Origin: Flavipsychrobacter sp.
Lineage (GTDB): Bacteria; Bacteroidota; Bacteroidia; Chitinophagales; Chitinophagaceae
DNA length: 64,000 nt
Assembly: GCA_016786665.1 (NCBI GenBank)
Contig: JAEUVZ010000019.1
Span: 1-64,000, forward strand
Reading direction: 5' to 3'
In this document: in pieces, positions 31,221 through 34,735 of the stretch
How positions within the stretch are numbered: the stretch's first letter is position 1
Layout: each line of letters opens with the position of its first letter
Translations under genes and position numbers: made by a program
The notes under the pieces: generated by a model
What the model was told of the DNA's origin: nothing
The model's database searches: none
Seen by the model: only the letters and a program-made list of their open reading frames with translations

Positions 31221-31254
31221 TTGGAGATGTTAATAATTATTTATTGTACATTTG
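31221..31254 (+). promoter_or_regulatory. Promoter of the fluoride riboswitch unit
   Basis: A TTG (-33) at 31221-31223 and TACATTTG (-7) at 31247-31254 are separated by 23 nt, at the edge of the spacing reported for Bacteroidota promoters. Transcription would begin just before the aptamer. Confidence 0.55.
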
Positions 31255-31260
31255 TGTCAA

Positions 31261-31340
31261 GGTGATGGTGTTCCACCTATTTAACCGCCCTTTCCGGGCT
31301 GATGGCGCCTACAATAGTTGTGTAACACAAGTTGTAGGCG
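31261..31340 (+). ncRNA. Fluoride riboswitch (crcB motif) with expression platform
   Basis: The aptamer (31261-31312) begins GGTGATGGTGTTCCACC, continues with the AACCGCCC-TTTCC-GGGC stem-loop, and ends GATGGCGCCTAC, the hallmark pieces of the fluoride riboswitch. In this fold the first loop pairs with the 3' CGCC to form a pseudoknot. The same CGCC (31306-31309) opens a competing hairpin: CGCCTACAA (31306-31314) pairs with TTGTAGGCG (31332-31340), capped by TTGTG-TAA-CACAA. The start codon is at 31342. Fluoride binding should break the hairpin and expose the start codon, an ON switch. No T-tract follows, so control is probably translational. Confidence 0.92.
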
Positions 31341-31341
31341 T

Positions 31342-32709
31342 ATGCATCGTATTTTCAATTTCCTCGGGAAACTTTCCTTTCCCGGCTACCTGTTAAAGTG
31401 GCTGCTGATCACGGCTCCCGTTTCGGTAGCGGTTGGGTCGCTTGTGGCGCTGTTCCTCTGGTTGCTCGATTGGGCAACGGTAACGCGCTGGGGCCATGAG
31501 TGGCTGCTGTATGCATTGCCAATGGCAGGATTAGCTATTCATTTTCTCTACAAGGTATATGGCAAAAGCTCCGAAAAGGGCAACAACCTGATAATAGATG
31601 AAATACACAGGCCGGGTGGTGGCGTGCCGCTCGCGATGGCTCCCCTGGTATTGGTGACCACGGTAGTTACACACCTTTTTGGAGGCTCTGCAGGCCGCGA
31701 AGGTACTGCGGTGCAAATAGGAGGAAGTATCGCCCACCTTTTTGGCCGTCGTTTCGGTTTGTCGCCGGTGGAGGTAAAGACCCTGCTGATGGCTGGTATT
31801 GCTGCCGGTTTCGGTGCGGTGTTCGGTACTCCTTTTGCGGGAATGATGTTTGCCATGGAGGTGTTGGTGGTGGGACGGGTGCATTTCCGGGCGGCGATAC
31901 CTTGTCTTATGGCTGCCTTTATCGGCGATTGGGCCACTTCCGCATGGGGCATTCATCATACGCACTACTCTATTGCTCCTCTACCAGGAGGCTACAGGTT
32001 TTATGGCGTTCACATAGAGGGCTTTTTGCTGCTGAAATCGGCCCTGGCTGGTATTGCCTTCGGCGCGGCTGCCTATATTTTTGCCGCATTCACACATACT
32101 GTAGGTGCGGCGGCTAAGAAGTTTTTTCGCCGGCAATGGCTGGTGCCACTTGCCGGGGGACTCCTGGTTATCGCACTCGTTTATGTATCCGGTACTACCG
32201 ACTACCTGGGGCTAGGTGTTACCGGGAAGAGTGCCGGGAGTGTCAGTATTGTTTCGGCATTCAGCGGGCGCGGCGTTACTGAATGGAGCTGGTTATGGAA
32301 GATCGTCTTTACGGGCGTTACACTGGGTATGGGCTTTAAAGGGGGGGAAGTGACTCCCCTGTTCTTCATTGGGGCCACCCTTGGTAGTGCGTTGGCTGTG
32401 GTAGCCAGTGTGCCAGTGGATGTATTTGCTGGTATCGGTTTCATCGCCGTTTTTGCCGCGGCTACTAATACACCACTTGCCTGCGGCGTTATGGGTATCG
32501 AACTCTTTGGGCACCAGTACGCCATTTACTTTTTTGCTGCCTGCTTTGTGGCATATCTATTCCATCGCGAAACAGGCATCTACTCCTCTCAGCGAATCAG
32601 AGCAATAAACGAAAAGTCGGGTGAGCCATTTACCCTGGCAGACATAAAAAAGAGGCGTACGCGCATCAATCGCATACGCCTCTACAAAGGCAGGCGTTTT
32701 TTTAAATAG
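31342..32709 (+). CDS. CLC-F type fluoride/proton antiporter
   Basis: A 455-residue CLC-family membrane protein. The selectivity motif, GSGIP in chloride CLCs, is replaced by GNNLI (residues 80-84), and the gating-glutamate motif reads GREGT (Glu120) and not GREGP. Both are marks of the CLC-F (EriC-F) fluoride exporter subgroup. The fluoride riboswitch directly upstream independently supports this substrate. ATG 31342 is the first start after the switch hairpin; an upstream in-frame TTG would lie inside it. The C-terminus is very basic (KKRRTRINRIRLYKGRRFFK) and its codons contain hairpin-forming sequence. Confidence 0.93.
   Translation: MHRIFNFLGKLSFPGYLLKWLLITAPVSVAVGSLVALFLWLLDWATVTRWGHEWLLYALPMAGLAIHFLYKVYGKSSEKGNNLIIDEIHRPGGGVPLAMAPLVLVTTVVTHLFGGSAGREGTAVQIGGSIAHLFGRRFGLSPVEVKTLLMAGIAAGFGAVFGTPFAGMMFAMEVLVVGRVHFRAAIPCLMAAFIGDWATSAWGIHHTHYSIAPLPGGYRFYGVHIEGFLLLKSALAGIAFGAAAYIFAAFTHTVGAAAKKFFRRQWLVPLAGGLLVIALVYVSGTTDYLGLGVTGKSAGSVSIVSAFSGRGVTEWSWLWKIVFTGVTLGMGFKGGEVTPLFFIGATLGSALAVVASVPVDVFAGIGFIAVFAAATNTPLACGVMGIELFGHQYAIYFFAACFVAYLFHRETGIYSSQRIRAINEKSGEPFTLADIKKRRTRINRIRLYKGRRFFK
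32677..32703 (+). terminator. Terminator overlapping the end of the CLC-F gene
   Basis: CGCCT (32677-32681) can pair with AGGCG (32692-32696), followed at once by seven T residues. The last codons and the stop codon of the transporter lie within it. A larger stem (AGAGGCGTA at 32651 with TACGCCTCT at 32675) overlaps it. Confidence 0.5.
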
Positions 32710-33886: not shown

Positions 33887-34735
33887 TCAGTCAGCAGCCC
33901 AGGTGCTCAGGTCGAAGGTTTCTTTGATTCGGATACCCCTGTCGGTTTCCGTCAGCGAAGCGCATTCCACTTTAGGGTCGTGCTCAAAGTAGAGCACCCA
34001 ATCGTTGGCGGCGGCCTCGCGGAGGAGTTTGGCTTTTTCGTTCAGGGTATCCAGCGGGCGCATATCGTAGGCCATTACCCAGGGCATGGATATATGTGCC
34101 GCGCTCGGCACCAGGTCGGCGCAGAACAGGAGCGTCTTGTCATTATACTTCACCTGGGGCAGCATCATAAAGTCGGTGTGCCCGTTGCAGTAGCGGATGC
34201 GGATGTCTTCTATCCATTCTTCGCCGTCGGCTACTTCTACAAAACGCAGTTGCCCGCTTTCCTGTATGGGGAGTATGTTCTCTTTCAGGAACGAGGCTTT
34301 TTCGCGGTCGTTGGGGTTTAGTGCGCTCTGCCAGTGCTTCTCGTTGCTCCAGTACTGGGCTTTCTTAAAGGCAGGCACCAGCCGGTCGCCTTCCCGCACT
34401 ATGGAGCCGCCACAGTGGTCGAAGTGGAGGTGGGTGAGGAACACATCGGTAATATCATCCATGCTGAAGCCGTGGGCCGCCAGCGATTTTTCCAGCGTAT
34501 CATCGCCATGGGGGTGGTAGTAGCTAAAGAATTTTTCGTCCTGCTTGCTGCCCATGCCGTTATCTATCAGTATGCGGTAGTTGCCGTGCTCTATCAGCAG
34601 GCAGCGCATGGCCCAGCTACACATATTGTTGTCGTCGGCGGGGTTTATTTTGTTCCACATGCTCTTGGGCACTACGCCATGCATAGCGCCACCATCCAGC
34701 TTAAAGTATCCCGCATTTACTGTAAATAATCTCAT
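33887..34735 (-). CDS. Metallo-beta-lactamase-fold hydrolase
   Basis: A 282-residue MBL-fold protein with the zinc motif THLHFDHCGG (HxHxDH), a later metal His region in RYCNGHTDFMM and a further Asp in LLFCADLVPSAAH. The overall pattern is that of small-molecule hydrolases such as lactonases and related enzymes; no signal peptide is seen, so it is cytoplasmic. Substrate unknown. It lies 17 bp after the UMF1-type gene on the same strand and may be co-transcribed with it. Confidence 0.85.
   Translation of the reverse strand: MRLFTVNAGYFKLDGGAMHGVVPKSMWNKINPADDNNMCSWAMRCLLIEHGNYRILIDNGMGSKQDEKFFSYYHPHGDDTLEKSLAAHGFSMDDITDVFLTHLHFDHCGGSIVREGDRLVPAFKKAQYWSNEKHWQSALNPNDREKASFLKENILPIQESGQLRFVEVADGEEWIEDIRIRYCNGHTDFMMLPQVKYNDKTLLFCADLVPSAAHISMPWVMAYDMRPLDTLNEKAKLLREAAANDWVLYFEHDPKVECASLTETDRGIRIKETFDLSTWAAD

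Follow-up and report, generated by a model that had tools for sequence, protein, structure and literature searches.

A fluoride-sensing riboswitch very probably controls the translation of a CLC-F fluoride/proton antiporter in Flavipsychrobacter sp., as judged from the sequence of contig JAEUVZ010000019.1, positions 1 to 64,000 (this whole stretch of 64,000 nucleotides is called the window below). The initial annotation had described a fluoride riboswitch with its hallmark parts in front of a CLC gene carrying fluoride-type motifs, and had taken RNA and protein to agree on fluoride as the substrate. This agreement is supported by a covariance match on the RNA side and by a tree on the protein side. 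The pairing of fluoride riboswitches with CLC-F genes is already well established (PMC11139923, PMC7266159), and the window is one further good example of it, from the Bacteroidota. The features are collected in Table 1.

Table 1. Features of the riboswitch and the transporter gene in the window, and the related loci with a GTG in the hairpin
Feature	Position	Strand	Basis
TACATTTG, fits Bacteroidota -7 promoter element, directly 5' of aptamer	31247..31254	+	sequence match
Fluoride riboswitch aptamer, RF01734	31252..31318	+	Rfam covariance match, model 1-64/64
Pseudoknot 5' strand GGUGU, P1 loop	31267..31271	+	Rfam alignment
Pseudoknot 3' strand GCGCC, also base of OFF hairpin 5' arm	31305..31309	+	Rfam alignment, hairpin analysis
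Putative expression platform: hairpin of GCGCCUACAAU (31305-31315) with GUUGUAGGCGU (31331-31341)	31305..31341	+	11 contiguous pairs
Predicted CLC-F fluoride/proton antiporter, 455 aa, ATG directly after hairpin	31342..32709	+	PF00654, 6D0J match, tree
GNNLI selectivity signature, residues 80-84	31579..31593	+	motif comparison
GREGT signature, residues 118-122, external gating glutamate E120 (E118 of 6D0J)	31693..31707	+	motif, alignment
GEVTP signature, residues 335-339, internal glutamate E336 (E318 of 6D0J)	32344..32358	+	motif, alignment
Leader-ORF loci, first set: L067, L089, L101, L105, L106, L107, L110, L111			
Leader-ORF loci, rest: L200, L206, L211-L214, L222-L224, L226, L227, L230, L231			
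In-frame GTG loci: L058, L063, L209, L220, L221, L225, L228, L229			
In-frame GTG loci, further: L050, L073, L079, L080, L092			

An Rfam scan of the whole window gave three matches, among them the fluoride riboswitch. A covariance search had been named as a check on the initial annotation, and the match is strong: it is full length, and its 58 bits (E 1.8e-13) exceed the gathering score, which is 34. The annotated start, 31261, coincides with the P1 stem and lies inside the Rfam match, which begins at 31252. The pseudoknot between the P1 loop and the 3' strand is present, i.e. the two strands pair if G-U pairs are included. The aptamer occurs as a single copy in the 3.5-Mb genome, and it is predicted to bind fluoride and to alter gene expression. 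In some related genomes two fluoride riboswitches were seen within 1-3 kb of one another (L015, G208:C1 627684 and 630376; L009, G296:C62 17661 and 14954; G441:C146 1253 and 2298).

The -7 promoter element of Bacteroidota is TAnnTTTG, and the matching sequence in the window begins 17 nt upstream of GATGG. The element begins 8-28 nt upstream in 55 of 108 distinct related aptamers, as compared to 1.3% of background 28-nt windows. Transcription probably starts near the P1 stem of the aptamer.

The sequence that follows the aptamer can form a hairpin whose 5' arm includes the 3' strand of the pseudoknot and whose GUUGUAGGCGU arm ends immediately 5' of AUG 31342. None of 100 shuffled sequences gave a helix as good as GCGCCUACAAU/GUUGUAGGCGU, the predicted energy of the hairpin is -20.3 kcal/mol, and the leader as a whole is more stably folded than its shuffles (z = -3.24). 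In the predicted free fold the bases 5' of the AUG are nearly all paired, and the AUG itself is flanked by two stems and occupies a small bulge. Once both pseudoknot strands are blocked, to represent the fluoride-bound state, the six bases 5' of the AUG go from a predicted unpairing of about 0-0.02 to one of 0.2-0.9. Shine-Dalgarno pairing is a weak dependence in Bacteroidota; because of this, and because the AUG is in a bulge, we infer the blocking of the start from the position of the hairpin.

The core of the hairpin is kept in the relatives, with compensatory changes between A-U and G-C (72 distinct arm pairs). Pairs 5 and 6 are standard in all 72 distinct sequences and so is pair 7, where 41 A-U, 22 G-C and 9 G-U pairs compare with a shuffle maximum of 65; the arms were chosen for best pairing, so that these counts lean towards structure. 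Many two-sided changes are found at pair 7 only, since the aptamer also constrains the 5' arm. In most relatives the hairpin ends 1-5 nt 5' of the start codon, or else it includes a GUG start.

The same hairpin might be an intrinsic terminator rather than a block of the start, so that transcription and not translation would be controlled. The hairpin is a strong one, and terminator-type fluoride riboswitches are known from the crcB genes of B. cereus and T. petrophila. However, there is no U-run: the next bases are AUGCAUCG, the AUG follows the arm directly, and in the relatives, too, the 3' arm remains beside the start codon. With the U-run missing and the arm abutting the AUG, we reject the terminator platform and regard transcription termination as very unlikely; control is most likely at the level of translation, because no U-run follows the hairpin.

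In the proposed translational ON switch, whose direction and level are both inferred, the 3' strand of the pseudoknot would pair with the nucleotides just 5' of the start codon when fluoride is absent, and translation start would be closed. Binding of Mg-bound fluoride would let the pseudoknot form and reclaim its 3' strand, whereby the hairpin would shorten and the ribosome could initiate at AUG 31342. The antiporter would then use the proton gradient to expel fluoride.

The reading frame most likely begins at ATG 31342 rather than within the aptamer. The mechanical ORF start, TTG 31318, was rejected because it coincides with the final aptamer base and because ATG 31342 agrees with the relatives. 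The encoded protein matches PF00654 at 1.3e-65, and its closest solved structure is the CLC-F fluoride/proton antiporter 6D0J (1.5e-56), whereas the chloride transporter ClcA, 3EJZ, is matched at only 7.8e-7. A 2024 review gives the CLC-F signatures as GNNLI/GMGLI, GREGT/V and GEVTP (PMC11139923). All three are found in the window protein, the last one as GGEVTP, and most of its relatives likewise carry GNNLI, GREGT and GEVTP. At the first two of these sites, GSGIP and GREGP are found instead in ClcA of E. coli and in ten CLCs of the chloride type from Bacteroidota, which bears out the replacement of motifs that had been annotated. In 6D0J the external and internal glutamates, Gluex and Gluin, are E118 and E318 (PMC12035849), and by alignment both glutamates of the proton path are retained in the window protein.

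A protein tree was built from 57 rows, 36 of them CLC-F-like, including 6D0J and the window protein. A branch with 100/100 support separates these 36 proteins from all chloride-type CLCs, although the exact placement of 6D0J within the CLC-F side is unsure owing to its long branch. Placement with chloride transporters had been named beforehand as evidence that would speak against the annotation; the window protein groups with CLC-F, apart from them. That the gene encodes a chloride CLC merely lying downstream of a fluoride riboswitch is very unlikely, and we reject it: the generic names PRK01862 ClcB-like and ClcA match weakly, far below their cut-offs (70 vs 482 bits), and the three signatures, the closest structure and the tree all point to CLC-F. 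The transporter is predicted to move fluoride selectively, coupled to protons.

The 3.5-Mb genome that contains the window has no second PF00654 match elsewhere, and no CrcB/Fluc was found in it. A genome of the same genus (L232, G319) has one CrcB/Fluc gene and no PF00654 match, which is in line with the usual mutual exclusivity of the two types of fluoride exporter (PMC11139923). Among the 80 closest CLC relatives in GTDB genomes (52-60% protein identity), 70 have the fluoride riboswitch upstream on the same strand at the gathering score. We also note that the window encodes, at 33887-34735 (-), a metallo-beta-lactamase-fold protein that resembles the YtnP lactonase family; its 187.6 bits fall short of the curated cut-off, 425.

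A different arrangement is seen in part of the relatives. In eight of them, which have a gap of 170-220 nt between the hairpin and the CLC-F gene, a GTG in the 3' arm of the hairpin opens an ORF of 54-77 codons, whose end lies at -11 to +12 nt relative to the ATG of CLC-F. With a further set of loci taken from the same genus, Mucilaginibacter, the number of distinct leaders grows to 21; their ORFs are 34-77 codons long and stop at -29 to +12 nt relative to this ATG. In other words, of 22 distinct long leaders that were inspected, 21 have their end no more than about 30 nt away from the ATG of CLC-F; the exception, L204, has a long leader with a weak hairpin match, and its nearest GTG opens a three-codon ORF. 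The shuffle frequencies are 0.25-12% for single loci; because the loci are related, these frequencies taken together should not be read as a probability. In further relatives this GTG of the hairpin shares the reading frame of CLC-F and may give an N-terminal extension of the transporter.

The Mucilaginibacter leader peptides align poorly past the first few residues, which disfavours a conserved functional leader peptide. As the peptide sequences vary, translational coupling is the better reading, and it is also suggested by the arrangement itself, in which a short leader ORF begins at the GUG of the hairpin and stops where CLC-F starts. Fluoride would open the GUG in the hairpin, the leader of 34-77 codons would be translated, and the CLC-F start would be reached by termination-reinitiation. 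We consider the chances evenly balanced that the start-sequestering hairpin is ancestral in these Bacteroidota and became a leader-ORF termination-reinitiation switch in part of Mucilaginibacter. Termination-reinitiation behind a riboswitch-controlled uORF is described for a B12 riboswitch of M. tuberculosis (PMC11260477). In the literature searched, which covers few subscription papers, no report of this mechanism was found for a fluoride riboswitch.

The analysis gives a firm substrate assignment to a protein that is named a chloride channel in sequence databases, and it yields a testable candidate for a translational fluoride switch in Bacteroidota. The presence of CrcB without CLC in a genome of the same genus means that the type of exporter can differ between close relatives. 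If the leader-ORF form of Mucilaginibacter is real, fluoride would join the few riboswitch classes that act through upstream ORFs.

In comparison with known systems, the aptamer does not differ from the fluoride (crcB) riboswitch RF01734: the covariance match is full length, the pseudoknot is the same, and so is the position 5' of a fluoride exporter gene. The platform of the window, on the other hand, is a hairpin adjacent to the start codon and not a terminator. The transporter belongs to the same subfamily as 6D0J of Enterococcus casseliflavus, with which it aligns over residues 22-427 and shares both glutamates of the proton path and an identical GEVTP; it has GNNLI and GREGT where 6D0J has GMNLV and GREGV, and its C-terminal tail is longer. 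The order of aptamer, hairpin and gene is that of the riboswitch-controlled CLC-F genes in other members of the Bacteroidota (Mucilaginibacter, Pedobacter, Chitinophagaceae; 70 of 80 relatives), whereas the hairpin helix of the window is longer than most and the leader ORF is absent from it.
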